Of a stretch of DNA of 64,000 nt, positions 2,263 to 50,447 are shown piece by piece. The stretch is taken from assembly GCA_029945445.1 (NCBI GenBank), contig JAQSCO010000049.1:51905-115904 (forward strand), read 5' to 3'. The notes below the pieces were generated by a model. That model saw only the letters and a program-made list of their open reading frames with translations. It did not search any database and had not been told where the DNA came from. The stretch is from Lacunisphaera sp. (GTDB taxonomy: Bacteria; Verrucomicrobiota; Verrucomicrobiia; Opitutales; Opitutaceae). Every line of letters starts with the position of its first letter. The stretch's first letter is position 1. The position numbers and the translations under genes are program-made.

Positions 2263-2363
2263 GATTGGTCTTGAGAACTAGGCCCGGATGGATTGTGTTT
2301 TGTCACGGATTGGGAATTCCCGGTCGGCAAAGGGTCTCGGTGAAAGCCGGGGCCTTTCGTTTT

Positions 2364-3119
2364 TTAGGGGAAGATTTTAAGGCCATAACCGTTGATCTGT
2401 CCACCCGAGCCCCGGCGAAACTTCGGCTCAAGAATAGCGTAGGCCCGGTTTTCCTGCGCTGGATCGATGACATGCCGTCCTATGGGACGCGCAACCAAAT
2501 CAGCGATCTGCAGACCAGGCAAGTTGGCCTTCTTGTCCACGAACCTGATGTCAAAGCCCGCTACGCGGGTGGCAACACGTCGGAATTCGAGTTCGAGGCT
2601 GTCATCCTCCCTCCGCCCCCGGCTCTCACAGATCAGCGGCGTGACTTTACCGGCCTGTCCATGGGCCAACAGGCATTTGGCCACCCGTTCGAGGCCATAC
2701 TCCAAAGCAATATGGTAAGGATTGGCCGGTTCAGAGTATTGCGCCTTCAACTTGTCCTTGCGGATGACAACGGCCACCAGCGTCATCGGCGTTCCTTCCA
2801 TCAAGGCGTTGAGGTCGGGGAAAAACACCTCGCGCTTTGCCGGCACGAGCAGGAAGGCGAATTCACCCTTGGCCTTCTTGATTTCGTTCTCATGCAGGAC
2901 TACTAGGTCGTGGCCAAAGTGCTTGAACTTGAAGCGCTGCACTGCCGGCGTGATGACGTCGATATACTCGCTTTTGCGAATGATGCAGAATGCCAACACA
3001 AAGACCGGATAGGTCGGGTCGCAAGGGTCCAATCCATGGTCCCCGCTTTCGTCCACGAAGACCATGAAGTCGCCGTAGACGGGCGGAGGGACGACAGGAG
3101 GCTGGCTTTCCGGCGTCAT
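2364..3119 (-). CDS. DUF3800 domain protein
   Basis: 251 aa. The DUF3800 signature is present: FVDESGDHG at residues 21-29 with the first acidic residue D23, and a late LQIADLVA segment that supplies a second conserved Asp. The family is widespread in bacteria, often beside restriction or phage-defence genes, and has been suggested to have an RNase-H-like fold; its activity is not established. The gene starts 3 bp after the stop of a broken hsdM start (3123-3299) and ends ~100 bp before the intact hsdM. It appears to be a cassette inserted between hsdS and hsdM. Confidence 0.85.
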   Translation of the reverse strand: MTPESQPPVVPPPVYGDFMVFVDESGDHGLDPCDPTYPVFVLAFCIIRKSEYIDVITPAVQRFKFKHFGHDLVVLHENEIKKAKGEFAFLLVPAKREVFFPDLNALMEGTPMTLVAVVIRKDKLKAQYSEPANPYHIALEYGLERVAKCLLAHGQAGKVTPLICESRGRREDDSLELEFRRVATRVAGFDIRFVDKKANLPGLQIADLVARPIGRHVIDPAQENRAYAILEPKFRRGSGGQINGYGLKIFP

Positions 3120-3122
3120 GGG

Positions 3123-3299
3123 TTATCGCTGGTCGCCGTCATGTCGCGCCGATGCTGAGCGAAGGCGGACCGACAGACCATCATCCCGCCCTGTCCGCCG
3201 TAGCCTTGGCGAAGGAGGAAGGATGTTGCAGCATGCCGGGTCGTAGTAGGGCGAAAGCTGGTAATTCCAGAGCTTTTGAACGAGAGCGGGAGCAGTCAT
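3123..3299 (-). pseudogene. hsdM 5'-end remnant 2 with palindromic insertions
   Basis: A 58-codon reading frame starts MTAPALVQKLWNY, exactly like intact hsdM. It is then broken by a ~30-bp insert (QLSPYYDPAC), resumes as CNIL, is broken again by a GC-rich palindrome-like segment (LPPSPRLRRTG), resumes as RDDGLS, and then loses homology. It begins 6 bp after the stop of the HEPN gene and ends just before the DUF3800 start. It cannot encode a methyltransferase. The second insertion is at the same codon as in remnant 1 (4945-5205), so the two remnants share ancestry. Confidence 0.85.
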
Positions 3300-3305
3300 G
3301 GTTTT

Positions 3306-3812
3306 TCAGCGGCGCATACAGCTTGCTAAACAGGTCATTACAACCTTACCGCAGTCAAAGGCCCGCTTTACCTCAGCATAACTAGCGGTAACTGGCACGT
3401 TGCCTTCGTGCGCGAACTCGTTTCTCCAGGTAATAAGATTCCCGTAGGAAGCCTTAATGCTAGCTCCCGCAGCGACTAAATGTTGTTGCTCCAATTTCTC
3501 AAGAGCGCGTTGAAAACGCAGTTCGTATCGGGCGCCAAATCTTGGCAGGTAGTCATCCCTGATTGGCCGGAGCCCGATACGGCCGTTTATTCGATCGAAA
3601 TATTTTGCGCAGAAATTCCCTAAAACCTTGTGCTTTGCCAAAGCGAAATCACAGAAAATTGTTTTCATGGCTAATTCCAGCACGGTGACAGAACTAACGG
3701 CTAAGAATCCAGTGTAACGCGATTCAATGAATGGATCATTCAAGCCAGCCAATATTGGATCCAGATGCTGGATCAGATCATCAGTCAGCTTGAAGTGATC
3801 GGAATACGCCAT
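3306..3812 (-). CDS. HEPN-domain protein (putative RNase)
   Basis: 168 aa, mostly helical. A clear HEPN Rx4-6H motif is seen at R130-x4-H135 (WRNEFAHEG), the catalytic signature of HEPN ribonucleases. The overall pattern (early SRYTGF, LELAMKTIF helix, late RNEFAH) resembles the RiboL-PSP/MAE_28990-like HEPN groups. It starts 3 bp after the stop of the DUF262 gene, so the pair is very likely one operon and one functional unit. The gene is clearly more A+T-rich than hsdM. The expected role is an abortive-infection or toxin-like RNase; this is inferred from the motif and setting. Confidence 0.75.
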   Translation of the reverse strand: MAYSDHFKLTDDLIQHLDPILAGLNDPFIESRYTGFLAVSSVTVLELAMKTIFCDFALAKHKVLGNFCAKYFDRINGRIGLRPIRDDYLPRFGARYELRFQRALEKLEQQHLVAAGASIKASYGNLITWRNEFAHEGNVPVTASYAEVKRAFDCGKVVMTCLASCMRR

Positions 3813-3815
3813 CGC

Positions 3816-4901
3816 TTACCCGAGAAGATGATTTTTAGTCGCTTCAAATCGCCGATTTACCACGGACAAGTCACTCGTGCTATAGAATGTGGTTTCGCTA
3901 AAGTCGGGATCCGCTTTGAGGCGGATGTATCTCTCGGCCAAATCACCGGGTAGTTTGCTACTGTTGCCTAGCAGCGTCGCAAAGACCGCATCGAGCGCCG
4001 AGGAATTCAGAGGCCCCCGTATATGGAATGGACGATCTCCCAGGGTTGTAATGATCGTTTCTGCGGTTTGTGCGAAACGCTTCACAAGCGTTTGGACCTG
4101 AATCGATGTGCCGCCTTTCTCCCGATTCATAGTCCTATTTAAGAACTCCTTCATAGGCTTATTGTAGTCCTCATAAAAATATGTGAGCCCGAAAATTCTG
4201 AGGATTAACTCCACGTCCTTCTGGTGACGGTCGAACGTCGTCTTACCTACAATCTTTCTCCAATTCTTGTCCTTATTAAGGTCGCGCAAAATACGGACTA
4301 AGTCCCCGCGAAATACACAGTTTCTTATTTCCTGAGGTTTAAGAGGTGTGCCCCCAGTATTCAGACGCTCAAATATGTGGTAAATACTCGTGGTTTCGTT
4401 CCTTGGCTTGAGCTGCCTGATGTTGATCGCGCGAAGAACGGCAGATTTAAGCTTTCGCTGCTGCACCTCACTTAAATCCTCAAAACGTTTTTTTGCATAC
4501 GGGCTGTTCTCATCCAACCCCTGAAGCCGAAATACTTGTTTCTTCCCCTGCAGGCTTTCTGAACCAAAATAGCCATCAAGAAAGTAAACTACACTGGTTA
4601 GCCGCTGTTGCCCGTCGATTACCTGATTCTTATTCGCCTCATCGACGTAGAAAAAGACCTGGGGAACTGGTAAGCCGATTAAGAAAGATTCAATCAGCAA
4701 AGAAGCCTGCTTAATGCTCCAAACAAAGTTTCTCTGAAAGTCAGGGATAACAATATCCCCGGCCTTCCACATTTCATGCACGACACTTAGAGTTAAGTCT
4801 GAGGGGTATGAGGCAATATCGTAAGCGATGTAGACCTCGTTATCTTCCGTCTCTTCCTGAACTTCCAGAATGTCGTCTGTGCTGTGTGGTTTAGCGCTCA
4901 T
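3816..4901 (-). CDS. DUF262 (GmrSD-N/ParB-like) domain protein
   Basis: 361 aa. The N-terminal DUF262 domain is recognisable by IPDFQRNFVW (52-61) and the DGQQR motif (96-100), which in this ParB/Srx-like fold is tied to nucleotide binding or hydrolysis. GmrSD-type enzymes carry a C-terminal DUF1524 HNH nuclease; no HNH motif is visible here, and the C-terminal ~150 residues are helical and unassigned. The nuclease role may instead belong to the adjacent HEPN protein encoded 3 bp downstream. The gene is A+T-rich relative to hsdR and hsdM, consistent with transfer. Likely an anti-phage gene, mechanism unknown. Confidence 0.85.
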   Translation of the reverse strand: MSAKPHSTDDILEVQEETEDNEVYIAYDIASYPSDLTLSVVHEMWKAGDIVIPDFQRNFVWSIKQASLLIESFLIGLPVPQVFFYVDEANKNQVIDGQQRLTSVVYFLDGYFGSESLQGKKQVFRLQGLDENSPYAKKRFEDLSEVQQRKLKSAVLRAINIRQLKPRNETTSIYHIFERLNTGGTPLKPQEIRNCVFRGDLVRILRDLNKDKNWRKIVGKTTFDRHQKDVELILRIFGLTYFYEDYNKPMKEFLNRTMNREKGGTSIQVQTLVKRFAQTAETIITTLGDRPFHIRGPLNSSALDAVFATLLGNSSKLPGDLAERYIRLKADPDFSETTFYSTSDLSVVNRRFEATKNHLLG

Positions 4902-4944
4902 GTATTATGTTTGGTTTTCTAAGCTTGATATTGATGGGTTCTGG

Positions 4945-5205
4945 TTATGCGAGCCCTCCTGTAAGAGCTTTTTGAGGGACGGACTGCCGATGGCGGGTGG
5001 CGCGCCTGAGATTGGTTTGCACGAAGGTTTCCAGTTCATCCACCATGCTCAGGCGGCGCTCCACTTCCGCCATGATGCGCGTTTGCTCTTCGTAGTCGCC
5101 ATACGACAGGCCGCCGTCCCGGCACATCTCGCCATAGCATGCAGGCGAAGGCGGAAGTATGTTGCAGTAATTCCAGAGCTTTTGGACAAGAGCGGGAGTG
5201 GTCAT
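4945..5205 (-). pseudogene. hsdM'-'hsdS fusion remnant 1
   Basis: An 86-codon frame. Residues 1-17 (MTTPALVQKLWNYCNIL) and ~32-40 (DGGLSYGDY) match the HsdM N-terminus, with a GC-rich palindrome-like insert (PPSPACYGEMC) between them. Residues ~43-85 (RIMAEVERRLSMVDELE...) match the last ~43 residues of the HsdS encoded at 6822-8066. The order M-start then S-end is the reverse of the present operon and fits an internal deletion in a tandem or recombined S-M array. Its ATG overlaps the stop of the ATPase gene (TAATG), so it may be translated as a short peptide. Confidence 0.85.
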
Positions 5206-6800
5206 TAGAATTGCAGACCAAATAATTCGGTCAATATGGCTTCGATCACCTGACGATAGTTGTCGATGTCCTCTTGAGGGATTCCAACGGTTGCCCGCTC
5301 GTGGATGAGCTTGTTCCTTACGTCGTAATAGTGCCGCGCTCGTTCCAGTAAACCGGATTGCAATGGCATTTTATCTATCACCGTTTGGATCACTTTGTGC
5401 CGAGATTTAAAGATTTCCGCGATTTTGGAATCGTTGAAAACTCGCGAATCATAGAGATCGGTCCGGTGAACAATGAACTCCTTAAGTGCTATCTCGAAAT
5501 TGCTATCGAGCAGTATCATCGCGATCCGATTGCCGGTCGTCAGACGTTGGCGTCCGATGAAATCAACCGCCGCGACAGCCTCGACCAAGCCGAGTGTCCA
5601 TGGCTTTTCTTCGATCTGCTTTCTGTTTTTTGCTTTGAGTTGCTCAATATGCGGTTTTTGCACTCGCGGTAACGGCGGTAGCACCAATTTTCTGCCTGAT
5701 TCGGCTTCGGACGGAGGTATCTCTTGAATATCACCTACAGTGTGACGGAATACTTTGGAGGCCCAGTCGTCCTTTAGGCGCCGCGAGAGAGAACTGAAGT
5801 GGCTGACAAGTTGGATCAACGTCGGTCGGACCTGCAAAAACGCAGTGTGTCCATAGTTGATGCCTGTCTTGCTACTATTCCACGGCATCAACTTCGCGGC
5901 ACCATTCAGCCTCACGATCACGCGACACAATGAAGCGTCCGGATGTGGAACACCTGCTTCTGAACCTACGTAGTATCCGACTTCGCGTGTTCTAAGCTCC
6001 TTAACAACGAGCCGGTTGTTACAGTAGACGTAAGCACCGTAATTATCCTTCTCTGGATCACGGTCTAGAATTAAGCCCGCTGTGATGTCGACTCCAAGTT
6101 TCCCAGCACCATCAGGTGCAATTTGAAATGTAGCATTACGCGGTGGGAAATCTGGCGGATAGGCCCAACTGTCGAATGCTCGCGGCAGAACATCGACGCC
6201 GTTCACAACGATCCTGCAATCGTCGATCTTAAGGAACCATTCATAAGATTCGCCAAAATGAATCAGCGCAACCGCAGCATCAGAGGCAGCCAGGGGCTTT
6301 CTAAGATGAGAAAGTTCTATTCTTGTCGTGCCGGCATCAATTTCTGGAATTTCGTAAGCCGGCAATTCCCAATCGGGGGATTCAAGCCACTCTTTATCAA
6401 TGTCGATTTGAAAGCTCCCGTCACCCACATGGTGCGTCTGAATGGTAACGCGCTCGGCAACCGCAACAACGGCTCGTTTGCTGCCGACTCCAAAGATACC
6501 AATCGATTCGCCATCGGGCGAATTCATGCTGCCTCCTGGCGCAATCAAGAGTCGAAGATTCTCCCTTGGAACCCCTCCAGCATTGTCTCTCAGTGTCACG
6601 ATTTGCCTGTCTGCGTCTAGGGTAAGCTCTATAAGAAGAGGCTTTCTGTTTTTAGTTCCAATCCAAATATCCAAGGCATTATCCACAAGTTCCGTCAGTC
6701 CCGTCTTAAGGTCGTAGTCACTGATGATCGACCAAAACATTCGCTTCTCGGGCATCCCATTGAGAGGCGCAATTTCAGTTTTACGGGTAACTGTGCTCAT
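5205..6800 (-). CDS. GHKL-type ATPase with C-terminal HEPN-like motif
   Basis: 531 aa. The N-terminal ~200 residues carry an HSP90/MORC-like GHKL ATPase: the N-box ELVDNALD (37-44), DNAGG (72-76) and GIFGVGSK (101-108). The middle region (~200-380) is unassigned. The C-terminus is helical and contains R495-x4-H500 (VRNKLIHERA), which matches the HEPN RNase signature. Start ATG lies 21 bp after the hsdS stop, and its TAA overlaps the ATG of the hsdM remnant. The gene is A+T-rich against hsdR and hsdM. Best read as a defence protein in which ATP binding controls an RNase-like domain; the ATPase call is strong and the HEPN call moderate. Confidence 0.8.
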   Translation of the reverse strand: MSTVTRKTEIAPLNGMPEKRMFWSIISDYDLKTGLTELVDNALDIWIGTKNRKPLLIELTLDADRQIVTLRDNAGGVPRENLRLLIAPGGSMNSPDGESIGIFGVGSKRAVVAVAERVTIQTHHVGDGSFQIDIDKEWLESPDWELPAYEIPEIDAGTTRIELSHLRKPLAASDAAVALIHFGESYEWFLKIDDCRIVVNGVDVLPRAFDSWAYPPDFPPRNATFQIAPDGAGKLGVDITAGLILDRDPEKDNYGAYVYCNNRLVVKELRTREVGYYVGSEAGVPHPDASLCRVIVRLNGAAKLMPWNSSKTGINYGHTAFLQVRPTLIQLVSHFSSLSRRLKDDWASKVFRHTVGDIQEIPPSEAESGRKLVLPPLPRVQKPHIEQLKAKNRKQIEEKPWTLGLVEAVAAVDFIGRQRLTTGNRIAMILLDSNFEIALKEFIVHRTDLYDSRVFNDSKIAEIFKSRHKVIQTVIDKMPLQSGLLERARHYYDVRNKLIHERATVGIPQEDIDNYRQVIEAILTELFGLQF

Positions 6801-6821
6801 TGATATTCACCTCGGTTTGAT

Positions 6822-8066
6822 CTAACTCCCGGTAAATGCTTGTTGAAGTATTGACTGGCGGAGGCGGCTGGCACGCTGGAGGTTGGTTTGCACGAGGGTT
6901 TCCAGTTCCTCCACCACGCTCAGTCGGCGCTCCACTTCTGCCACGATGCGCGTTTGCTCGACGAGGGGTGGGAGCGGAATGAGCAGTTGGCCGAAACCCT
7001 TCTGCGTAAGATTAACGCCACTGTCACTGATACCCGTCTTGAGCTTGTTTACAGCGTCAACGATGCGCGGGGCGTTTAGGACCACTTCCAGGAAGGCGGC
7101 ACTAGCAACCATTGGCTTGCAGCGCAGTCGGTAGGCTTTGTCACAAAGCATTAGCCGAGGACGTGTGATTTTTACTAAACAGGCGATACCAACCCGGGAA
7201 CGCGGTCCGGCACGTGTCACTAGCAGGTCTCCGGACATCAGCTCAAGATGCACCCGTGGTTTTAATCCTAGTGGCAGCGCCTTGTTTTCCGCATCAATGT
7301 AACGGAGGTTCTGAATCGCTGTGGTCTTAATGACGGCCCATTTGGTGTCACTATCTGATGGTTCGCTTTCGCATTTCGGGCTCCAGCCTTGATCCATTGA
7401 AAGAATCGCACTCGTGATTGGTTTCTGTGGCCAGATGGCGTCCGTGGGGACGAGGCGTCCTTCGCAGGCGGCATTGAGGACGGCGGCGCGGTAGCGTTTG
7501 AGGTTGGCTTGCACGCGGCGCAACGCGGCGACCCCGACATCCAGGCGCGTGAATTGCTTCTCGATCTCCGCCACGATCCGTCGCTGGTCGGGAATCGGCG
7601 GAAGAGGAATCGGTTGTTGGGCTAGATAATTCTTGGGCACTCTACGCAAACCCACGGCCCCAGTCATGTTCGCTGCCGCTGACCGCCGGAAGCTCTCTTG
7701 ATTGATAAAGAAAAAAAGAAATTTCTGCAGCAACTTAGCTTTGGGCCGAAGCGCGAAGAGTTCCGTTGAACCGAAGCCAATGCCATTTGTAAGGCCGGTC
7801 ACAACCGCTGCTTTTCCGTTTTCCATGCAAGGAGTCACCTTTGCAAAGAGAACGTCGCCGTCTTTGAACGGTGTATAGCCTTTACGGACTTCTTTTATTT
7901 TCCGGTCTCCCAAGGATCTAAAACGCCCGCTTTCTTCCTCAACGCATTTCATCGGGACAAAAGACACCAACGCGTCGCCGCCTAACTCATCAAGTTCAGG
8001 CCGAGGATTGATGTCTACCACGTCCGAGAATCGGACCACTGACCAGTTGTTCGCGCGAATACTCAT
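6822..8066 (-). CDS. hsdS: Type I restriction enzyme specificity subunit
   Basis: 414 aa with the usual two-half design. The first target-recognition domain (~1-140) is followed by a conserved helical spacer RRIVAEIEKQFTRLD... The second recognition domain (~200-365) is followed by a matching spacer RIVAEVERRLSVVEELE... It sets the bipartite DNA sequence recognised by HsdM and HsdR. Its ATG overlaps the TAA of the cyclase-like gene by one base, indicating translational coupling. The last ~43 codons are duplicated at 4945-5205, a plausible site for recombination that could reshuffle specificity. Confidence 0.95.
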   Translation of the reverse strand: MSIRANNWSVVRFSDVVDINPRPELDELGGDALVSFVPMKCVEEESGRFRSLGDRKIKEVRKGYTPFKDGDVLFAKVTPCMENGKAAVVTGLTNGIGFGSTELFALRPKAKLLQKFLFFFINQESFRRSAAANMTGAVGLRRVPKNYLAQQPIPLPPIPDQRRIVAEIEKQFTRLDVGVAALRRVQANLKRYRAAVLNAACEGRLVPTDAIWPQKPITSAILSMDQGWSPKCESEPSDSDTKWAVIKTTAIQNLRYIDAENKALPLGLKPRVHLELMSGDLLVTRAGPRSRVGIACLVKITRPRLMLCDKAYRLRCKPMVASAAFLEVVLNAPRIVDAVNKLKTGISDSGVNLTQKGFGQLLIPLPPLVEQTRIVAEVERRLSVVEELETLVQTNLQRASRLRQSILQQAFTGS

Positions 8067-8905
8067 TACTTGGTAGCTACCTTGCTTTCGGTGAGTTCGT
8101 GGAGCCTAAAATACTCGATAGCCAAACTCTTGTGACGACGCATTGCATCCAGGTCGTATTGGGCAGAAACGGAGTTCTTCTCCAACCAGTCAAAGTGATG
8201 GACCAGCGTTCGCCGCGTTGCCCAAGTCAAAGCGTCCTCATTTTCAAACCAGCGCCAGAGATTAACGCGGTATGGGTAGGCGTCCTTTCTCCTGGGTGCA
8301 AACGCACGAGCGGATTCGTGGATATAGACCCCGAATGGAGGAGCAAGACCCTCTGCTTCGTAAGCGTGGGAGATGCCCATGCCTATTGCTGTCCCTCCGA
8401 GATAGCGTGTGTTCTGTTGGAGAATTGTAGAGCCCGCCGCCAGAGAGCTACCTGGAATAAGCGGACCAAAAGCAACGCCCGCCCGCACCATGAATCGACT
8501 GCTGGGCACGCGCTCTTGAACAAACACGTTTGCCAATCCAGCCAAGATTTCAGTGAGGCATGTTTCCAGCAAATCGCGGTTGCTCACATATCCGTAAACT
8601 CCATCCATGACCGGGTTTATCTCTAATTCAGGATGTCGCTGCTTCACAAAGAGTGCAGCCGCGTGAATTTTCATTACTGACCGGGCCGCTCTGGGAAGCG
8701 AGAGCTTCATCAAGTTCCTCGCCCCCATGAGATCCAACCAAAAAACGTAACGATAATCACGTATGTCTGTATTCTGCTCGACTGTGCTGAACATGTATTT
8801 CGGCAATGCGTCACCCCTCGCTTTCAGAAGCCTTTTCAATTGCGGCAAATCCATTTCGGATGTCAGGACATCTGCGGATGATTTGGTTGTGCTTTTAGCT
8901 TTCAT
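8066..8905 (-). CDS. Class III nucleotide-cyclase-like protein within the R-M operon
   Basis: 279 aa. The order of motifs follows the class III adenylate/guanylate cyclase fold: metal Asp D58 in FWLDLMGARN, second metal Asp D101 in MDGVYGYV, RAGVAFGPLIPG (141-152) in the place of the family's R-[IV]G-x3-GP element, and YLGGTAIGMGISHAYEAEG (168-186) where canonical cyclases have G-x2-VN-x-AAR. The usual Asn and Arg of the last motif appear replaced, which could mean altered substrate choice or loss of activity. It sits 5 bp after hsdR and overlaps hsdS by one base. Pycsar cyclases (PycC) are class III-related, so a cCMP/cUMP-type alarm role is possible, but no known Pycsar effector is adjacent. 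Confidence 0.6.
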   Translation of the reverse strand: MKAKSTTKSSADVLTSEMDLPQLKRLLKARGDALPKYMFSTVEQNTDIRDYRYVFWLDLMGARNLMKLSLPRAARSVMKIHAAALFVKQRHPELEINPVMDGVYGYVSNRDLLETCLTEILAGLANVFVQERVPSSRFMVRAGVAFGPLIPGSSLAAGSTILQQNTRYLGGTAIGMGISHAYEAEGLAPPFGVYIHESARAFAPRRKDAYPYRVNLWRWFENEDALTWATRRTLVHHFDWLEKNSVSAQYDLDAMRRHKSLAIEYFRLHELTESKVATK

Positions 8906-8910
8906 AGACG

Positions 8911-11706
8911 TTACGCCGCAAGCACCTCGTTAAGTTCATCGAGCAGCTTGGACAGTTGCTCGCCGAAGAGTTGATGGGCTTTGCCGAGGCCGCCGCGCTG
9001 GGAGAATGGCGCGAATTCGAAATCGTCGGTCTCTATACTACACGTTGTAGCAATGTGATCGCGGATGAGTTCGAGCCAAGAGAGCTGCTCGGGAGCGAAC
9101 GCCTGTCCTTTACGCTGGGCGAGCCAGGAACCGAACCGAGTTTTCACAGAATCAGCAAAGGGTTCGAGGACTGGCTGTTGTTCGAGAGAGAAACGCACGA
9201 GGGCAACAAGATCGGCAAAGCGGCCGGCTTGCGAGCGGCCTTTGACTTTTTCCGGGGCGGTGGCGGCGTAGGCCCGCCAGAGGGTGTCCTCGGTCCAGGT
9301 GGCGTTGGTTTCGCTGAGCTTCTTCTCCAGCTCCTTGAGCATGGGCTCGGTCAGGCGCTGTTTGTAGGGACGCGAATAAAGAATCTGGAGGGCGGTGATC
9401 TCGGCGCGGTTCTTTTCGACGTATTCGCGGAAGGTTTGAACCAGACTCTGGGCTTTAGCTTTCGCCGCGGCGTCAAAGCCGGAGAACTGGACGGTGTCGA
9501 TCGTGACGGTGTCGATGGTCTGCTCGGCATCCTGCTTGGCCTTGGCGAGGGCGTCGCGCAGGGCGGGCAGATCGAAGGGTGCGCAGGCGGCGTCAGCGAG
9601 AGTCTTGCGGGCGGCGGTCATGGCCTCGGGCAACACCTCGGCGGGGCTGGCGCCGGGTTTGCCGGAGGCTTTCTCGGCGATGACGTCGGGATCGAGGGCC
9701 TGCAGCAGCGAGGCGGATAGCTCCGCGACGGTCTTCCCGCCGGCGAGTTCCTTCAGTTCCTTGCGCTGGGGTGCGGAGAGTTCGCGGTCGAGGCGGGCGA
9801 GGCGGCCGGCAAGGGTCGTCAGGGTGTCTTCGTCGCGTTTGCCGAGAGCGACGCCGAGGAGAAGGGCCGGAAAACCGACCGTGCGCTGGCGCTCCAGGGG
9901 ATGGGAGTCGGTCTTGTCGCTCTCGCACACACCGACGGCATCGACGATGACGAAGTGCGTCTTGGCCCGGGCATCGGCACCGGAGACGGCCTGCAGGTCG
10001 GTGGGCGTGAGGACGCGCGTGCCGCGACCTTTCATCTGCTCAAAATAGGTGCGGCTGCGGGTATCGCGGAGAAAGAGGAGGCACTCAAGCGGCTTGATGT
10101 CGGTGCCGGTGGCAATCATGTCCACGGTGACGGCGATGCGAAGCGTGGGCGAGGTGCGGAATTCCTGAATGAGCGTCTCGGACTTCTCGTAGCGCTTGGT
10201 CTCGGGGTTGTAGGTCTTGTAGGTGATCTTCTTGGCGAAATCGTTGCCCTTGCCGAAGACCTCGCGGACGAGATGCACGGTGTCCTCAGCATGGGAGTCG
10301 TCCTTGCAGAAGATGAGGGTCTTGGGGACGAGGGTGCGGCCGGGGAAGAGCTCGGTGAAGAGGGCGTCTTTGAAGGCTTGGAGGACGGTGCGGATTTGGG
10401 ACTTCACGACGACGGAGCGGTCAAGGTCCTTGGCGTCGTAGGTGAGATCCTCGTCGAGGCGCTCCCAACGGACGGCGCGGGTCTCCTTGCTGCGGCGGTC
10501 GACGTAGAAGCCCTTCTCCACTTTGCCGCCCTGCGCAGTAACCTGGGTCTTGATGCGGTAGACCTCGTAGCCGACGTTGACGCCATCGACGACGGCGCGC
10601 TCGTGGTTGTATTCCATCACGAGGTTCTGGTTGAAGAAACCGATGGTCTGCTTGGAGGGCGTGGCGGTGAGGCCGACGAGGTAGGCGTCGAAGTATTCGA
10701 GCACCTGCCGCCAGAGGCCGTAGATGGAGCGGTGGCACTCGTCGGTGACGATGAAGTCGAACGCCTCCATGGGGACAGCGGGATTGTAGGCGACGTCCTT
10801 GGGACGGTCGTCGGCGGTGGCGATCTCGTAGCCGGACTTCTCGTCGAGGTCCTCGTCGTAGGCGGCCTCGCCGCGCAGGATCGAGTAAAGGCGCTGGATG
10901 GTGCAGATGGTGACGCGGGCAACGGAATCGAGCTGGTTGGAGGTGAGGTGCTGGACGTTGTAAACCTCGGTGAACTTGCGGCCGGTGTCGGGCGCGACGA
11001 ACTGCTGGAACTCGGCCATGGCCTGCCGGCCGAGGTTGGCGCGGTCGACGAGGAAGAGGACGCGTTTGGCCCCGCTGAATTTGATGAGCCGGTAGGCGAA
11101 GGCGCAGGCGGTGTAGGTCTTGCCGGCGCCGGTGGCCATCTGGATGAGGGCGCGGGGGCGGTCGGCGGCAAAGGACTTTTCGAGACCGGTGATGCCCTCG
11201 ACCTGGCAGGCGCGAAGATTCTGCGCCGGGAGCGGATGGGCGGTGGGCATGACCGCGAGACGGGCGCGGAGGGTGTCGGACTGGGCCAGCCAGTCGGCGA
11301 GAGTCTCAGGACGATGGAAGGAGAAGACGCGGCGCGAGCGAGGCTCGGGATCGCGCTCGTCGCGGAAGAGGGTTTCGACGCCGGTTGATTCGTAGAGGAA
11401 CGGGAGGCCGGAGATGCCCGCGGGCAGGAGATTGGCAAAAAAATCGGGCAGGTTCTCGGCGTAGTTGGCCGACTGGTCGGCGACGCCGGAGAGGGTCGTG
11501 CCGAATTTTTTGGCCTCTATGACACCCACCGGACGGCGATCCACGAGGAGCAGGTAGTCGCACGGGCCGGTCTTGAGGGGAACTTCGCGGATGGCGATCC
11601 CCTGCCCTGCGCCCAGATTCAGCTGCTTGTAGTTCTGGATGACCCAACCCGTGGCGATGAGCATCTCATCGATCTTCTCACGGGCGATGGCTTCCGGGGT
11701 GGGCAT
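8911..11706 (-). CDS. hsdR: Type I restriction enzyme endonuclease/translocase subunit
   Basis: 931 aa. The N-terminal nuclease domain has a PD-(D/E)xK core: D50 in GPCDYLLLV and E64-x-K66 in GVIEAKKFG. The SF2 translocase follows, with Walker A MATGAGKT (191-198), a DECH box in FIVTDECHRS, and helicase motif VI-like KGRGTRV. The C-terminal ~330 residues are of the EcoEI-type HsdR C-terminal class. HsdR translocates and cuts unmethylated DNA in complex with HsdM2S. It is the first gene of the operon; the promoter must lie in 11,707-11,760, but no convincing -35/-10 pair was identified. Confidence 0.95.
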   Translation of the reverse strand: MPTPEAIAREKIDEMLIATGWVIQNYKQLNLGAGQGIAIREVPLKTGPCDYLLLVDRRPVGVIEAKKFGTTLSGVADQSANYAENLPDFFANLLPAGISGLPFLYESTGVETLFRDERDPEPRSRRVFSFHRPETLADWLAQSDTLRARLAVMPTAHPLPAQNLRACQVEGITGLEKSFAADRPRALIQMATGAGKTYTACAFAYRLIKFSGAKRVLFLVDRANLGRQAMAEFQQFVAPDTGRKFTEVYNVQHLTSNQLDSVARVTICTIQRLYSILRGEAAYDEDLDEKSGYEIATADDRPKDVAYNPAVPMEAFDFIVTDECHRSIYGLWRQVLEYFDAYLVGLTATPSKQTIGFFNQNLVMEYNHERAVVDGVNVGYEVYRIKTQVTAQGGKVEKGFYVDRRSKETRAVRWERLDEDLTYDAKDLDRSVVVKSQIRTVLQAFKDALFTELFPGRTLVPKTLIFCKDDSHAEDTVHLVREVFGKGNDFAKKITYKTYNPETKRYEKSETLIQEFRTSPTLRIAVTVDMIATGTDIKPLECLLFLRDTRSRTYFEQMKGRGTRVLTPTDLQAVSGADARAKTHFVIVDAVGVCESDKTDSHPLERQRTVGFPALLLGVALGKRDEDTLTTLAGRLARLDRELSAPQRKELKELAGGKTVAELSASLLQALDPDVIAEKASGKPGASPAEVLPEAMTAARKTLADAACAPFDLPALRDALAKAKQDAEQTIDTVTIDTVQFSGFDAAAKAKAQSLVQTFREYVEKNRAEITALQILYSRPYKQRLTEPMLKELEKKLSETNATWTEDTLWRAYAATAPEKVKGRSQAGRFADLVALVRFSLEQQPVLEPFADSVKTRFGSWLAQRKGQAFAPEQLSWLELIRDHIATTCSIETDDFEFAPFSQRGGLGKAHQLFGEQLSKLLDELNEVLAA

Positions 11707-12410: not shown

Positions 12411-12708
12411 GAGACGGAAGAGGAACCTTCAGCCTTCGGACCTATTGTTCATCGTTCAGTGTTGTGACTGCTGCCGCCCACAGAGGGCACCCGCCATCAG
12501 TCACCCTGCGCTTGCGCTTCGGGCTGTTGCTCTACACTTCACGACGCCATCTCCGCGCTGCCGCGCTCCGTCAATTTTCATTGTTCATCGGGTCCGGAAA
12601 TGGCCAATGAACAATGAACGTTGGACGATGAACGATTTGCCTGGGCTGTCATCGCGGGGTGAGGGCACCCCGCCTCCACCCCTAGCCTCATGCCTCTAGC
12701 CTCGCGCC
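12411..12708. repeat. Intergenic inverted-repeat region with ATTGTTCAT element, copy A
   Basis: 298 bp with no gene. It contains a partial arm at 12,444-12,463 (ATTGTTCATCGTTCAGTGTT) and an element at 12,572-12,634. That element has left arm CAATTTTCATTGTTCATCG, centre GGTCCGGAAATGG and right arm CCAATGAACAATGAACG. A GCCTC-rich run (12,681-12,708) abuts the stop codon of the zinc peptidase gene. Related elements are at 13,631-13,717 and 15,997-16,065. Confidence 0.8.
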
Positions 12709-13413: not shown

Positions 13414-13752
13414 GGTTGGTAAAGTGGTTAGGAGGAAGGTTGTCAGGAGGGCGGGATTTTCAAGCGGACAATGGCGGGATGGAAAGGGGGGAGCCCGTTG
13501 TAAACCGGCGGGAGGCGAGAGGCGAAGGCGAGAGGCGGAAGGGGAAAGGCGAAGGGCGATCCGTGGAGGGTCGGTCTCCCGACCGACCGCGGTCCGTCAA
13601 GAGACGGGCCGTCCAACAAACGAACCGCGGAATTGTTCATCGTTCATTGTTCAATGTTCATTATTCATCGGGTTTCCGAAATGGCCAATGAACGATGAAA
13701 GTTGGACAATGAACAATCGGCAGCTTGCGCCTCGTGCCTCTCGCCTCATGCC
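13414..13752. repeat. Nested inverted repeats between two peptidase genes
   Basis: 339 bp without a gene. An outer arm of GAGGCGAGAGGCG-type sequence (about 13,508-13,545) faces a GCGCCTCGTGCCTCTCGCCTC run (about 13,728-13,748). Inside lie the 52-bp hairpin 13,564-13,615 and the ATTGTTCAT element copy B at 13,631-13,717 (left arm AATTGTTCATCGTTCATTG, right arm CCAATGAACGATGAAAG). The whole gap is repeat material; no promoter was identified. Confidence 0.75.
13564..13615. repeat. 52-bp hairpin element, copy 1
   Basis: It starts TGGAGGGTCGG, has the centre ACCGCGGTCCG at offset 23-33, and ends GGCCGTCCA. The arms pair imperfectly. A second element of the same length, layout and centre lies at 50,455-50,506. 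Confidence 0.7.
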
Positions 13753-15936
13753 TTACCCGAGCCCCGCTCGGGCAAGCAGCGCCGCCTGGTCCGGCGGGCG
13801 GCCCATGAAGTCGACGAAAAGCTGCATTGGGTCGGCGGAGTTGCCGCGGCTGAGGATCTTCGCCACGAACTCGGCGCCGGTGGCGCGGTTGAAGATGCCT
13901 TCGCGCTTGAAGCGGGTGAACGCGTCGGCATCGAGCACCTCCGCCCACTTGTAGGAATAGTAGCCGGCGGCGTAGCCCGTGGGGTCGGAGAAGATGTGGG
14001 TGAAGCGGTTCTCGATCGTCGGGGCGGGCGGCTCGGTCGGCATGAGGTAGCTGCGGAGGAGCGCCTGCAGTTTCGGGGAGACCTCGCCGTCCACGTAGGC
14101 GGCGGGGTGGAGGTGCAACTCGAGGTCCATGCGGGAAAACGCGAGCTGGCGCATCGTGGCGGAGGCGCTGCGGAAGTTCTTGGCGGCGACGAGGCGCGAG
14201 AAAAGTTGTTCGGGAATGGCCGCGCCGGTCTCGTGGTGGCGCGCGAAGAGGTCGAGGCTGGCGCGTTCCCAGCACCAGTTCTCCATGATCTGCGAGGGCA
14301 GCTCGACGAAGTCCCACGCGACGTTGGTGCCGTTGAGCGACTTGATCTCCCCCTCGCCGAGGAGGTGGTGCAGCAGGTGGCCGAATTCGTGGAAGACCGT
14401 CTCGACCTCGCGGTGGGTGAGCAGCGCGGGCTTGCCGTCCATGGGCGGCGTCATGTTCCCGCACATGAGGCCGAGGTGCGGCGCGCGCGTGCCGTCGGGG
14501 CGGCGGCCGCCGGTGATCAGGTAGTTCATCCAGGCACCGCCGCGCTTGGACTCGCGCGGGTGCCAGTCGGCGTAGAACGAGCCGAGGTGCCGGCCGGCCT
14601 CGTCGTGCACGTCGTAGAATTTCACCTCGGGATGCCAGGTCTCGACGGCGCCGGCCGGGCGCTCGGTGACGCGGATGCCGAAGACGCGCGAGGTGATCTC
14701 GAACATGCCGGCGAGCACGCGGCTCATCGGAAAATACGGCCGCAGCTGCTCCTCGTCGAAATCGTAGCGCGAACGACGCAGCCGCTCGGCCCAGAAGGCG
14801 GTCTCCCACGGGGCCAATGGGCCGGTAGCGGACTTGGTCTGCTCGGCCTTGAACGCGGCGAGTTCGCTCGTCTCGCGGGCGAAGGCCGGGGCGACGCGGG
14901 CATGGAGGTCCTCGATGAAGGCGAGGGCCGTGGCGCCGCTCTTGGCCATGCGGCGTTCGAGCACGAGGTCGGCGAAATGCGGGCGGCCGAGCAGCGCGGC
15001 CTTTTCCTGGCGGAGCGCGAGGATGCGCTTGATGAGGTCGCGGTTGTCCTGCGGCGCCGTCACGCCGACGGCGGCGGAGGCGCTCCAGACCTCGCGGCGC
15101 AGTGCCGCATCCTCGGCGTAAAGCAGGACCGGCTCAAGCGAAGGCCCGTGCAAGGTGAAGCGCCAGGCGGGGGCGGCGGCGGTCCCCTGCCCTTTCTTGA
15201 GCGCATTCTGGCGGGCCGACTCGCGCGCGTGCGGCGGCAGGCCGCGCAGGCGCGTCTCGTCGCGGAGGACGAGTTCCCAGGCGTTGGTGGCATCGAGGAC
15301 GTTCTCGGAATACTTCTGCGTGAGCGAGGCGAGTTCGGCCTGCACGGCCTCGAGGCGGGCCTTCTTGTCGGGCGGGAGATCGGCGCCGTTTTGGCGGAAC
15401 TCCGCCATCGTCTCATCGACGAAGCGCCGGTGCTCGCCGCGCAGGGGGGCGCCGGTGCCGGCTGCCGGCCCGGTGTGCCCCGTTGATTCCTGCTGGAATC
15501 CCGGGAATCGTCCACCGGCCTGCGCCGGGGCGTTTGTCCCGGGAACTCCGTGCTCCGCCGGATTCCCGGGCAAAGCGACGGAAGGATGCGCGGCCGCGGC
15601 CTTGAGGCGCAGCCAGAGGTCGGGGTTCAGCGGGATGCGGGCGAAGAAGGCGGAGACCTTCGGCAGCATGGCGTTGTGGGCGTCGCGCAGCGCCGGCGAG
15701 TCGGAGACGGACGTGAGGTGCGTGACCTTGGCCCAGGTTTCATTGAGGAGGTCGCTGGCGTCCTCGAGGGCGAGGAAGGTGTTGGCATAGGCGGCCGCGG
15801 CGGGGTCGAGGCGGGTGATGGCGGCGATGGCCTCCCCGGCGGCGGTGAGCGCGTGCTCGACGGCGGGCACGACGCGGTCGGGCGTCAGCTGCGACCAGCG
15901 GATGAGGAAGGAGCGGTCGAGAAAGGGATGGTCCAT
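13753..15936 (-). CDS. prlC: M3-family oligopeptidase (oligopeptidase A-like)
   Basis: 727 aa. The zinc site HEFGH lies in [15 protein letters not shown], and the C-terminal catalytic region contains the typical M3 run [18 protein letters not shown]. It cleaves short peptides in the cytoplasm after proteolysis; no signal peptide is seen. Residues ~123-164 (nt 15,445-15,570) are a Pro/Gly-rich segment absent from the usual pattern, where the N-terminal helical domain runs directly into [17 protein letters not shown]. The DNA there holds CCCGGGA-centred inverted repeats, so it looks like an in-frame repeat insertion. The start [12 protein letters not shown] is well placed. Confidence 0.9.
15445..15570. 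repeat. In-frame palindromic insertion in the M3 peptidase gene
   Basis: About 42 codons. The segment contains GGAATCCCGGGAATC facing TGTCCCGGGAACTCC, and a further GGATTCCCGGG. The encoded stretch is Pro/Gly/Ala-rich and out of character with the helical domain around it. Borders are approximate. Confidence 0.6.
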
Positions 15937-15996
15937 CGGCCGCGTAATGACCGCGCGCAGGGCGGGGGTGTCAAATTAATACAAGGCGCGCGGAGG

Positions 15997-16065
15997 ATTG
16001 TTCAATGTTCATTGTTCATTGGAGTGCGGTCCGAAATGGCCAATGAACAATGGACGTTGAACATT
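15997..16065. repeat. ATTGTTCAT inverted-repeat element, copy C
   Basis: The left arm ATTGTTCAATGTTCATTG faces the right arm CCAATGAACAATGG/ACGTTGAACATT, with centre TGCGGTCCGAAATGG. It is followed within ~20 bp by the displaced receptor-gene tail at 16,082-16,129. Confidence 0.8.
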
Positions 16066-16081
16066 AGCCAGGGCCAGCAGG

Positions 16082-16129
16082 TAGCCTCCCACCGATACGC
16101 GGCGCCGAGGGAGAACTGGCGGCGGGCGG
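16082..16129 (-). pseudogene. Displaced copy of the TonB-receptor 3' end
   Basis: 48 bp matching 17,216-17,263 at 41 of 48 positions. In the receptor frame it reads ARRQFSLGAAYRW, against ARRQFAVGAAYRW in the intact gene; the stop TAG has become GAG. It lies on the far side of the inserted gene 16,179-17,174, so the receptor gene seems once to have ended here. Confidence 0.75.
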
Positions 16130-16178
16130 GCAATACAGGCTTGTCACCCACCCTCGGCGAAATAGCCCTTGGGGCGCA

Positions 16179-17174
16179 ATGAACGTGCGCCCTCGACTGA
16201 TTCTGGTGCGATGCCTCCTCAGCTTAGGCGCGGTCTCGCCCGTTTTGCTCCCGGCCAAGTCGGCCAAGGATGGCGCGGAAAGCTTTGTCGCACCGTCGGC
16301 CTTCCAACTCGCGAAAGTGCAGGAAGAGCATGGCATCGCGCTCATCAGCCAGCGGGTCGTGCGGGAATGGCGCGATCCTTTCGGAACACGACTTGGGCTT
16401 GGCGTGGACGACACCAACGTGATCTCCCCCGCTTTGCTCTCGTCGCAATTTGCGAGTATCGTCGAGCAGGCGACAAAGTCTTATCCACTGGAGAAGATCG
16501 AGCTGGCCCACATCTTTAACGTCAAGGGCCACGATTGGATCGTGCTGCGTCTGCGGGGCAGCAAGGGCGACCAAAAGCATTTGCGCATCGTCGCCGTGGG
16601 CGAATTCCGGGGATTTCTCGTGCAAATCGAGCTGGTGGGTCCCGAACCCAACGCGAGCGACATCGGCCGCTATCTCAAGTGGATTCTTGAGGACAACAGT
16701 CCAGCGAACCCGGCGGCCAATGCCAGCCAGCCAGCGCCAACCATCATCCCCAAACCTGCGGCGGAAAAGGCCCTCACACCGGAGGACGCCATCCACCTCG
16801 CCGCGGCCGCCGCGCCCGATGGAGTCGACGGCATCTTTGAATTAACGGTGCGCGCAACGGGTCGCGATAACGACGTCATCTACCTGAACTCGGAGAACAA
16901 TTATCGCGACCAACGATGCCTCACGATCCAGATTCCGACGGTGGTCGTAACGGAATATGTCAGAAAATTCGGCCTCGCTCCCGATGTCGCGCTCAAGGGG
17001 AAGCACATCCGGGTGAATGGTGAAGCCCGCCGGGCTACCATTTGGATTACCCAATATGGGCTCAAGACCCAAAATTACTACTATCAAACCCACGTGAAGC
17101 TGGTTGATCCTAGGCAAATTGAAGTAGTGCCAGCCGACGACGCACTCAGCCTTGAAACAACCCGCAAACCGTAG
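16179..17174 (+). CDS. Secreted protein of unknown function
   Basis: 331 aa, family not recognised. An N-terminal signal segment (RLILVRCLLSLGAVSPVLL) is followed by a ~140-residue domain (ALISQRVVREWRDPFGTRL ... SDIGRYLKWILED), a Pro/Ala linker near 175-195, and a C-terminal ~130-residue domain. The last resembles an OB-like fold by pattern (FELTVRATGRDNDVIYLNSE ... LKGKHIRVNGEARRATIW). It is the only plus-strand gene between minus-strand neighbours, is more A+T-rich than the flanking receptor gene, and is bracketed by duplicated receptor 3' sequence, so it was probably inserted here. Confidence 0.75.
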   Translation: MNVRPRLILVRCLLSLGAVSPVLLPAKSAKDGAESFVAPSAFQLAKVQEEHGIALISQRVVREWRDPFGTRLGLGVDDTNVISPALLSSQFASIVEQATKSYPLEKIELAHIFNVKGHDWIVLRLRGSKGDQKHLRIVAVGEFRGFLVQIELVGPEPNASDIGRYLKWILEDNSPANPAANASQPAPTIIPKPAAEKALTPEDAIHLAAAAAPDGVDGIFELTVRATGRDNDVIYLNSENNYRDQRCLTIQIPTVVVTEYVRKFGLAPDVALKGKHIRVNGEARRATIWITQYGLKTQNYYYQTHVKLVDPRQIEVVPADDALSLETTRKP

Positions 17175-17219
17175 CTTCCCGATTCGCGCCCTTTGCGGTC
17201 ACTTTGGCCGGAAAACAGC

Positions 17220-19088
17220 CTACCACCGATACGCCGCGCCAACCGCGAACTGGCGGCGGGCGGCGGGGACGGCGGGGATTTCCTGAAAAGTGCTGTCCCA
17301 GAGATTGTCCACGAGCAGCGAGAACTCGAGGCCGCGTACGGCGGGCGGCAGGTAGTAGAGGCCCACCGCGGAAACGAAGGCCTCGTTGCCGCCGATGGTG
17401 CGGAGGAAGTTTTTCTCCTGCACGCGATATTCGTGGTCGAGGCGCGCCTCGAAGCCGGCGCCGAGGCGGAGCACGACCGCCGCGGTGAAGCGGTGCCGGG
17501 CGAAGTTCAGCGCGTAGAAACTGGCGTCGACCGTCGCGAGGCCGTAGTCGGCGGTCTTGTCGAGATAGGTGTAGCCGAGGATGAGGTCGCAGCGCGGCGT
17601 GCGGCGGGTGGTGACGACCTCGAAGCCGAGCGTGCCGGTGTCGACGCGGTTGGCGGTGCGGGCGGTGATGCCCTTGGCAAAGGTCCAGTCGGTGAGATGG
17701 TCGTCCCAGCGGTAGAACAGCGCGGTCTCGACAGACCAGCCGGCGGCCTGGAAGGCGGCGCCGGTCTCGAGGTTGCGGCTGGTGGCGCGGCCGAGCTTGG
17801 GGTTGCCGCGGAAGAGGCCGGCGGCGGGATTGGACTTGAGGGCGGTGTAGGTCGGCACCTGCGTGGTCTCGGCGTATTCCGCGTAGAGGCACGTGCCGTC
17901 GGGGCGGGTCAGCGCGGCGGACACGAGCGGTGAGACGGCGGAGGCGTCACGGTTGGTGTCGTCGTAGGTCGCACCGGCGCGGAGAAGGAGCTGGCCGGCG
18001 GAAGTGTCGAGGCTGGTCTCGGGCACGACGCCGAGCTTGAGGAAGGAGCGCGTGTGGTAGGGGCCGAAGGTGAGCGACGTGGACGCGAGGCTATCGTGCA
18101 TGGCCTGCGCGTTGTAGGCGACGGCCCAATCGCCGAACTGCTGGTGGCCGTCGAAGGAGACGGCGCTCACGTGCGTGGTGTGCTGGAAGGGATTGGAGGC
18201 ACCCGGGACGGCGCGGTTGAACTCGTAGTCGTCGTCGTTGCGCCGGTAGTAGGCGCCGAGCTCCCAGTAGTTTTCGGGCGAGGTCCAGGCGCGGTGGTGG
18301 AAGGCGTAGAGCGTGGTGCGCAGGTCCTCCGTTTCGTTGAAGCCGAACGGCGTGTAGAGATTCGGCCAGCCGAAGAACTTGTGCTGCCAGCCGGCGAAGA
18401 GATCGGTCTGGCTCTGCGCGCCGCGCAACTGGAGGCGGCCGGCCGCGCGCCGGAAGTTGTGGTCGCCGAACGGCACGGAGCCCTCGGACTCGGAGCGCGC
18501 CAGCTCGGCGTCGGCCGCGAGGGTCTGGCCGCCCACGCCGGTCTTCGCCACGACGCCCTGGTAGAGGCTCTGGCGGTTGGTCGCGAAATCGCCGACGGCG
18601 ACGGCCGCCTCGCCGCGCGGCTCGATCGGCCGCCAGCCGTAGGCGACGGTGCCGACGCCGGCGTTGAGGCCCGCGAGGGCGTTGGCGGCGCCCGTGAGAA
18701 TCTTCGGCGACTGCAGCATCGCGGGAGGAATGGGGATCTCGGCGAAGTAATGACCGGTCTGCGGGTCGAAAAGCGAGAGGGCGCCGAGCTTGAAGCCCGT
18801 GTTCTCAAACACCCCGCCGCGGATCGCGAGGTCGGCCTGGCCCTCGGCGAGGTTGCGCGCCTGCACGTCGACGCGCGGCTCGAAGCGCAGGCCGGATACG
18901 GGCATCGCGAAGGTGTTGACCGGAGTCTGGTTGGCGACCTGCTCAGAATAGACGGCGACCTTCGGCAACTCGTAGGCCGAATCGTCCGCGGCGCGGGCGA
19001 CGGGGCCCGCGGCCGCGAAGGCGAGCGCACAGCCGGTGAGGGCGGCGCGGAGCAAGGAACGGGCGATGACGAGACGCGAAAAAGCCAT
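17220..19088 (-). CDS. TonB-dependent outer-membrane receptor
   Basis: 622 aa from the ATG at 19,088 (an in-frame TTG lies 33 bp upstream). A signal peptide is present (LLRAALTGCALAFAAAGPVARA). A TonB-box-like LPKVAVYSE is followed by a plug domain (RNLAEGQADLAIRGGVFENTG) and a beta-barrel rich in alternating aromatic/polar strands, ending in a C-terminal aromatic (GAAYRW) as needed for barrel assembly. The ligand is unknown: iron chelates, vitamin B12 or carbohydrate are all possible. It is short for the family but complete. Its last ~48 bp are duplicated at 16,082-16,129. Confidence 0.9.
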   Translation of the reverse strand: MAFSRLVIARSLLRAALTGCALAFAAAGPVARAADDSAYELPKVAVYSEQVANQTPVNTFAMPVSGLRFEPRVDVQARNLAEGQADLAIRGGVFENTGFKLGALSLFDPQTGHYFAEIPIPPAMLQSPKILTGAANALAGLNAGVGTVAYGWRPIEPRGEAAVAVGDFATNRQSLYQGVVAKTGVGGQTLAADAELARSESEGSVPFGDHNFRRAAGRLQLRGAQSQTDLFAGWQHKFFGWPNLYTPFGFNETEDLRTTLYAFHHRAWTSPENYWELGAYYRRNDDDYEFNRAVPGASNPFQHTTHVSAVSFDGHQQFGDWAVAYNAQAMHDSLASTSLTFGPYHTRSFLKLGVVPETSLDTSAGQLLLRAGATYDDTNRDASAVSPLVSAALTRPDGTCLYAEYAETTQVPTYTALKSNPAAGLFRGNPKLGRATSRNLETGAAFQAAGWSVETALFYRWDDHLTDWTFAKGITARTANRVDTGTLGFEVVTTRRTPRCDLILGYTYLDKTADYGLATVDASFYALNFARHRFTAAVVLRLGAGFEARLDHEYRVQEKNFLRTIGGNEAFVSAVGLYYLPPAVRGLEFSLLVDNLWDSTFQEIPAVPAARRQFAVGAAYRW

Positions 19089-19130
19089 TGGGTTACAAAG
19101 CCGCTGAACCTTGCTTAACAAGGCTGGCCC

Positions 19131-49310: not shown

Positions 49311-50447
49311 GTGAGCCAGAAATCCCCCGCCCCGCTCCTCTACGCCGACACCCACGCCAGCGCCGACATGCTCTATTTCGGGCGCGTCGAGGTGCACGAC
49401 CCGTTCATCGCCTTGGGCGTGGGCGGCCGGACCATCACCGTGCAAAGCGCGCTGGAGTTCGGCCGCGTGAAGAAGACGAGCGCGTTCGACGTCGTCCTGC
49501 CGCGCGAAAAATGGCTCGCCCGGGCCCAGGAGATCTACGGCCCGAAGGCCGGCGTGGCCGAGATTATCGCCACCCTCGCCGGCCACTACCGCCTGCGGCA
49601 CTTCCGCGTGCCGGACGACTTTCCCGGTTCGCTCTACGTGAAGCTCACCCAGCACGGCCTGAAGCTCGCGTTCGCCGATGGAATGATGTTCCCCGAGCGC
49701 GAGATCAAGACCGACTGGGAAGCCGCCTGCATCCGCGAGGGCAACCGGCTCTGCACGGTCGGCTATGCGGTCGCCGAAAGAATCCTGCGCGCCGCTCAGA
49801 TCAAGGGCCGCGCGCTCGTCCACCGCGGCAAGCCGCTCACGTCCGAGTCGCTGCGCTTCGCGCTCGAGACCGCCATCAGCGAGCAGGGCGGCAACCCGCA
49901 GGACACCATCGTCGCCGGCGGCAACCAGGCCTGCGACCCGCACGACCGCGGCTCCGGCCCGCTGCGGCCGCACGAACTCATCATCATCGATATTTTTCCG
50001 CGCGTCGTGAAGACCGGCTATTTCGGCGACATGACCCGCACCTACCTCAAGGGCCGCCCCTCCGAGGAGCAGCGCAAGCTCGTCGCCACCGTCCGCAAGG
50101 CGCAGCTCGCCGCGACCAGGACCATCCGCGCCGGCGTCGACGGCCGGGCGGTCCACAAGGCGTGCACCGACTGCTTCGCCGCCGCCGGCTACATCACACG
50201 ACAGACCAAGGACGGTGCCGTCGGCTTCATCCACGGCACCGGCCACGGGCTCGGCCTCGCCGTGCACGACCCGGGCCGCATGTCGCCGGCCGTGTCCTAT
50301 CCGCTGAAAAAGGGCTCCGTGATGACTGTCGAGCCCGGCCTGTATTATCCCGGCCTCGGCGGCTGCCGTTGGGAGGACGTCGTGCAGGTGACCGCCACCG
50401 GCACCAAGCCGCTCTCGAAGCATCCCTACAACTGGGAAATCCGCTGA
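49311..50447 (+). CDS. M24 family Xaa-Pro aminopeptidase-like
   Basis: 378 aa from the GTG at 49,311. The C-terminal 'pita-bread' domain contains the metal ligands in IIDIFPRVVKTGYFGDMTRTY (Asp, Asp), GFIHGTGHGLGLAVHDPGRM (His), VMTVEPGLYYPGLGG (Glu) and a final Glu in CRWEDVVQVT. The N-terminal domain is shortened compared with PepQ/PepP. It removes N-terminal residues before proline or acts as a related dipeptidase. Confidence 0.9.
   Translation: MSQKSPAPLLYADTHASADMLYFGRVEVHDPFIALGVGGRTITVQSALEFGRVKKTSAFDVVLPREKWLARAQEIYGPKAGVAEIIATLAGHYRLRHFRVPDDFPGSLYVKLTQHGLKLAFADGMMFPEREIKTDWEAACIREGNRLCTVGYAVAERILRAAQIKGRALVHRGKPLTSESLRFALETAISEQGGNPQDTIVAGGNQACDPHDRGSGPLRPHELIIIDIFPRVVKTGYFGDMTRTYLKGRPSEEQRKLVATVRKAQLAATRTIRAGVDGRAVHKACTDCFAAAGYITRQTKDGAVGFIHGTGHGLGLAVHDPGRMSPAVSYPLKKGSVMTVEPGLYYPGLGGCRWEDVVQVTATGTKPLSKHPYNWEIR

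Follow-up and report, generated by a model that had tools for sequence, protein, structure and literature searches.

How a single gene came to stand between a receptor gene and its usual neighbour, with a copy of the receptor's own 3' end on its far side, is the question raised by the locus described here. The window, meaning the whole stretch of 64,000 nucleotides that was analysed, comes from Lacunisphaera sp. (GenBank assembly GCA_029945445.1, contig JAQSCO010000049.1, positions 51,905 to 115,904 of the forward strand). Contigs, gathered loci and genomes are designated by C, L and G numbers, respectively, and the contig of the window is C49; positions without such a number are those of the window. 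In the line of this genome, about 1.1 kb of DNA carrying one gene was inserted within the final codons of the receptor gene. That gene nevertheless has a complete end again, and its closing 41 coding bases are found a second time next to the gene of an M3 peptidase. The features are collected in Table 1.

Table 1. Features of the receptor-M3 peptidase interval and its two flanking genes (window coordinates).
Feature	Position	Strand	Basis
Peptidase M3 gene, usual receptor neighbour	13753..15936	-	PF01432, E 3.2e-136; adjoins the receptor in relatives
Conserved promoter-like block of M3 (TTGACA...GCGGTCATTACGCG..ATG)	15937..15998	-	similar intergenic sequence in relatives
Dispersed palindromic repeat, CAATGAA/TTCATTG type, ~65 bp	15999..16063		arms of 24 nt, 92% complementary
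Stub of the old receptor tail (left repeat copy)	16072..16129	-	stop position reads GAG
Inserted DNA, ~1,076 bp	16130..17205		not present between receptor and M3 in 14 of 16 close receptors
Cargo gene, 331 aa	16179..17174	+	ORF between the tail copies
Present receptor tail (right repeat copy)	17206..17263	-	41 final coding nt, TAG and 14 nt downstream
Outer-membrane receptor gene, 633 aa, complete	17220..19121	-	ORF; stop TAG at 17220-17222

In the initial annotation, the receptor's tail was said to recur at 16,082-16,129 with 41 of 48 matches and with the stop changed to a sense codon, and the gene between the copies was said to be A+T-richer than the receptor gene. These readings were borne out in the present analysis. 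An independent repeat finding in the window recovered the same alignment as part of a longer direct repeat of 58 nt (47/58 identical, 81%), and the protein reading of the stub ends in ...ARRQFSLGAAYRW-E, with GAG replacing the stop TAG. The G+C content of the cargo gene is 58.7%, against 69.1% for the receptor gene (fractions of 0.587 and 0.691, with 0.699 for the M3 peptidase gene). The encoded tails, ARRQFAVGAAYRW in the present receptor and ARRQFSLGAAYRW in the stub, represent about 13-14 codons of the receptor end; the copies differ at five coding bases, giving S/A, L/V and one silent change, and both residue changes are conservative. The edge of the alignment at the left junction is abrupt, as a sharp cliff in which 17 identical bases are followed by 11 mismatches in 41. 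From the stop onward the copies agree at 11 of 17 bases, in a part where relatives are variable. An 11-mer of the tail occurred twice in the window versus 0.11 times in shuffles. The name 'TonB receptor' is used here tentatively for the gene, for which NCBIfam gave a weak match to TIGR01785 (TonB-hemin, E 1.6e-4, 20 bits, cut-off 317) and Pfam gave no match at E 0.1; no relatives of the receptor were found among viral contigs.

A dispersed palindrome lies 8 bp from the stub, and the second tail might accordingly be a chance or dispersed repeat, the outcome by which the initial annotation would have been overturned. Against this, the stub's best match outside itself in its own genome (4.17 Mb) is the receptor end (E 1.8e-9), which is its only strong one; with 40 of the 65 first candidates scored, the remaining matches were two, of 16-17 bases and 30-32 bits. 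The dispersed-repeat reading of the tail was rejected on this sole strong match, and next to no credence is given to it or to chance. The palindrome itself belongs to a family with 13 copies in C49:39-68 kb; other contigs gave weaker matches, with 40 of 65 candidates scored, and eight loci of relatives, each of about 20 kb, gave none. The copy between the stub and M3 is a separate insertion. Palindromes of this family, ~65 bp long and with TTCATTG/CAATGAA heptamers, are intergenic at 12571-12626, 13646-13708 and 15991-16070 of the window and in C49:39515-49554.

The state of the site before the insertion was read from relatives. A receptor match was present in 28 of 38 genomes of the order, own genome included; 106 loci were gathered, among which 101 with a receptor end and stop represented 85 distinct receptors, as defined by the last 300 nt. 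Sixteen of these distinct receptors reach 60% identity or more; in 14 of them M3 stands 50-163 nt away, compared with 1,283 nt here. Relatives with the receptor and without the gene, for which the initial annotation had suggested a search, thus exist. Over all identities, M3 was seen within 250 nt in 30/85, further away in 2/85 and not at all in 53/85, one of these last having at least 60% identity to the receptor of the window. Two loci are exceptions: in L038, from the genome of L003, there is no M3 gene and the receptor is followed by yugP, and in L039 (same genome as L014, G003) the gap is 1,966 nt long and holds different cargo without a tail copy. A gene for a 604-aa protein of membrane type occupies L039 7728-9542 in G003 (PF10131, E 4e-4, below cut-off), and at the more distant locus L101 the receptor-M3 gap is 729 nt. 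The order prfA-prmC-ctpA-rhomboid-ferredoxin-receptor-M3-yugP, in which some of the gene names are read from the ORFs, recurs in all eight larger loci, although one of them lacks M3.

Since the site is empty in 14 of 16 close receptors, the cargo gene is taken as an insertion in the lineage of this genome, which the comparison of loci supports. Within the genus, the receptor-M3 gap has thus received cargo on two occasions, of which only one is accompanied by a tail copy. Tail copies in relatives were searched for with the last 63 nt plus 20 nt as the query, over up to 6 kb downstream of the receptor or to the end of the locus (minimum 137 nt). No comparable copy, with or without the gene, was found in the 101 relative loci, and the initial annotation was not contradicted by the tail copy without the gene that would have told against it. 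Apart from the trivial overlap with the query, weak matches were obtained in four loci, as 14-mers in L090 and L099 and as 30 nt at 83% about 3.7 kb away in L097 and L153; the same search on the window itself returned 47 nt (E 7e-13).

The two copies could be assigned by their position. The stub adjoins the promoter-like block of M3 that is found in relatives, and by position it is therefore the old tail. In its coding bases it matches the tails of 17 relatives at 26-35 of 41 positions, compared with 26-32 of 41 for the present tail. The stub is a true receptor tail and occupies the place expected of the old one. Both M3 and the promoter-like block before it are intact, and the insertion was accompanied by a duplication and not by a deletion of recipient DNA. 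That the stub is a bona fide receptor tail in the correct orientation would also be expected if it were the remnant of a second, tandem receptor whose body was replaced by the gene. However, a receptor query matched its own 4.9-kb locus once and each of the eight larger relative loci once; the tandem remnant was rejected, no further receptor piece being seen at the own locus, and is regarded as very improbable.

Cargo is enclosed here between direct copies of one gene end, with the receptor complete on one side; described from the receptor, a truncated homologous 3' end lies downstream of the intact gene with the cargo in between. Islands that use gene ends leave a restored tail and direct repeats at the 3' end of a gene, and both are seen at this locus. 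The receptor tail might thus have served as the attachment site of a small element, one without an integrase from the start or through later loss, the repeats being attL and attR. Seven matches to the integrase family PF00589 were obtained in the genome, on C12, C60, C56, C64 and C47, but none on C49, in a search confined to that family. Nor was the site reused in the 101 relative loci, the independent insertion of ~2 kb in the same gap of G003 came without a tail copy, and the other cases near the locus use unrelated sequences. The tail was rejected as an attachment site for lack of a PF00589 integrase on the contig and of reuse in relatives, and site-specific integration is considered improbable.

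The reading favoured on balance is that homology at the tail let in DNA that held the gene and, probably, a short receptor end, so that the receptor gene was rebuilt and the old tail was displaced. The incoming DNA would enter at the receptor end either as a small circle, made of the gene and a short receptor end, that would integrate by one crossover in the tail, or as a linear piece that would be joined homologously at the receptor and, immediately upstream of the crossover point, illegitimately by its other end. By either route the order tail-gene-tail would result, with the receptor gene rebuilt and the old tail displaced. The stub would afterwards drift and lose its stop. The palindromic repeat between the stub and M3 may have landed there earlier or later. 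A tail-cargo-tail order with a sharp left edge is the expected product of a circle carrying a gene end that integrates by a single crossover, and the data are fitted best by a single crossover or by a one-sided homologous event combined with an illegitimate joint. The genome encodes ComEC, by which DNA uptake is permitted and not thereby demonstrated. On the other side, a crossover within 58 bp at 81% identity would be inefficient unless the identity was then higher, and no donor for the tail or the gene was found among the genomes, plasmids and phages searched.

The main alternative to import is a duplication made locally during the insertion, in which a staggered break or a template switch was filled in around captured DNA, so that both tails were the recipient's own and diverged later. 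The receptor body bears on this choice. It remains close to its nearest relative, G017, up to its end, and no mosaic switch was found in 120-nt windows against 12 relatives; with this likeness unbroken, no imported stretch is visible in the receptor body, as local duplication would have it, and import of a longer receptor end was rejected. The reading of the initial annotation is thus supported as to the insertion and the old tail left beside the M3 block, whereas a receptor end carried in by the incoming DNA is no more than probable, since an imported short tail fits the unbroken body as a duplication during the insertion does. The agreement of the copies from the stop onward counts against the favoured reading and fits local duplication or a near donor, and a nearby case described below, at the end of a PIN gene, has copies as alike as 98%. 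On the other side, the residue differences between the two tails all occur in a set of 45 relatives whose identity is 48% or more; of copies given five random substitutions, 4.5% did as well on residues, a weak test over 39 nt only. This pattern hints mildly at two tails that may once both have been functional. Import of a short tail, with a near relative as its source, is preferred and was rated about twice as likely as duplication during the insertion, which is kept as a possible and less likely course.

The cargo protein is likely secreted, its N-terminus being signal-like as judged by eye, and the gene probably encodes an accessory secreted protein. The gene was not found in any of the 56 other genomes in which it was sought. 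Among 251 other genomes of the family, four gave partial matches only: in three the C-terminal domain (about residues 196-320) was matched with 34-45% identity, and in a fourth residues 126-236 were matched weakly. Searches with the protein against Pfam, NCBIfam and PDB returned nothing useful, those against plasmids and phages gave no match, and the single match in PHROGs (E 0.13) was disregarded. No donor was found in a collection of genome contigs by pattern search and tblastn. The single-sequence AlphaFold model (mean pLDDT 38.5) was too poor for use.

The initial annotation further compared the locus with duplications of hsdM and suggested a test of whether other cargo genes of the genome are flanked by duplicated ends of their neighbours. 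A survey of repeat pairs was done with the palindrome family and pairs below 76% identity excluded and with paralogues filtered out; the paralogue filter was adjusted after its first version had wrongly removed the receptor pair on account of an off-diagonal match, and the final calls were made by eye. On C49 (151 kb), five of six direct-repeat pairs were not explained by paralogous genes, and four of these five lie within 21 kb, at the tail of the PIN gene, the head of hsdM, the tail of hsdS and the tail of the receptor gene. At the 3' end of the PIN7/NYN gene, ~19 kb from the receptor case and outside the window, a direct repeat of 124 nt with 98% identity (C49:48241-48364 and 49571-49694; L034 8241-8364 and 9571-9694) encloses a nucleotidyltransferase gene and a HEPN-like gene, the HEPN match being below cut-off. 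The parallel with hsdM held, in that its first 39 bp (2224-2262) recur twice in the hsd locus, at 3261-3299 and 5167-5205, and the 3' end of hsdS (6829-6959) recurs once, at 4958-5088, with 83% identity. In this restriction locus (739-11706) these copies of the hsdM and hsdS ends are interleaved with cargo between hsdS and hsdM, and the cargo genes are HATPase-like, GmrSD_N, HEPN and DUF3800. The fifth pair (C49:147936-148006 and 150481-150551; L036 12936-13006 and 15481-15551), of 71 nt with 80% identity, lies near the contig end and surrounds four small genes of low GC3.

As a control, 720 kb of C57, C9 and C60 yielded 11 pairs, none of which was judged to be a gene end around cargo; flanking by neighbour ends was thus found within the same 21 kb and not in the control. 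Five of the 11 were read from the sequence as internal repeats at C57:82-85 kb, three were paralogues or repeats within a gene, which we take to be histidine-kinase-like, amidohydrolase-like and UvrA-like, and three were intergenic, two of them (C57:151607-152854 and C9:63024-64268) flanking a single gene without being copies of a gene end. Palindrome-bearing stretches elsewhere gave no pair in 20 kb of C60, none in 14 kb of C63 and one in 11 kb of C35. The C35 pair (L070 7897-7968 and 9398-9469; 72 nt, 98.6%, 1.5 kb apart) is seemingly the end of a short ORF. The contrast between C49 and the control is suggestive only, because the filter was changed after the receptor pair had been dropped and the calls rested on judgement by eye. 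That an integrase-free route would repeatedly add cargo at gene ends while rebuilding them, concentrated in the palindrome-dense region, is a doubtful generalization.

The locus shows in readable form how one accessory gene can enter a conserved gene row with neither neighbour broken, and the scar of the insertion is a complete gene end and a small stub. Stubs of this sort lend themselves to searches, by which gene gain without a recombinase could be counted across genomes, and the clustering in and beside the restriction locus suggests where to search.

The closest laboratory likeness is found in Escherichia coli recombinants obtained with DNA carrying a lacZ end. Of 60 such recombinants that were expected to be one-sided events, 56 yielded the PCR product diagnostic of a lacZ end present twice; the duplications, attributed to single crossovers, measured 109-950 bp in 14 sequenced recombinants (PMC3240628). 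In both cases the cargo lies between direct copies of a single gene's end; the lacZ duplications are laboratory products, whereas the present repeat of 58 bp is only 81% identical and is therefore old. The same paper states that one-sided recombination usually deletes rather than duplicates, and describes homology-facilitated illegitimate recombination (HFIR) as one homologous and one illegitimate junction, the latter mostly with 3-10 bp of micro-homology (PMC3240628). Like HFIR products, the present locus has ~1 kb of foreign DNA beside a homologous stretch and an insert without a recombinase, but those products usually carry a deletion and a short duplication is seen here.

One-sided homologous recombination with an illegitimate second joint was also proposed for displaced 3' ends in T6SS loci of Vibrio and CDI loci of Acinetobacter (PMC5361080, PMC6336857). 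In the orphan 3' ends of T6SS effector, CDI and Rhs genes, new DNA likewise enters beside a conserved part and thereby shifts the old 3' end further downstream (PMC5361080, PMC6336857). Those are polymorphic toxin loci with variable C-termini, whereas the 13 receptor codons here are near-identical, and no polymorphic C-terminal toxin or immunity exchange was found at the receptor tail, the encoded tails being nearly alike. In E. coli, S. aureus and S. pyogenes, 10-18% of the variable segments have direct repeats on either side, as the cargo has here, but 66-94% of those repeats are shorter than 30 bp, and section 10 of that source does not describe them as gene ends (PMC2884548). The event is of a known kind, that of orphan 3' ends and single-crossover duplications, and is a clean case of it.
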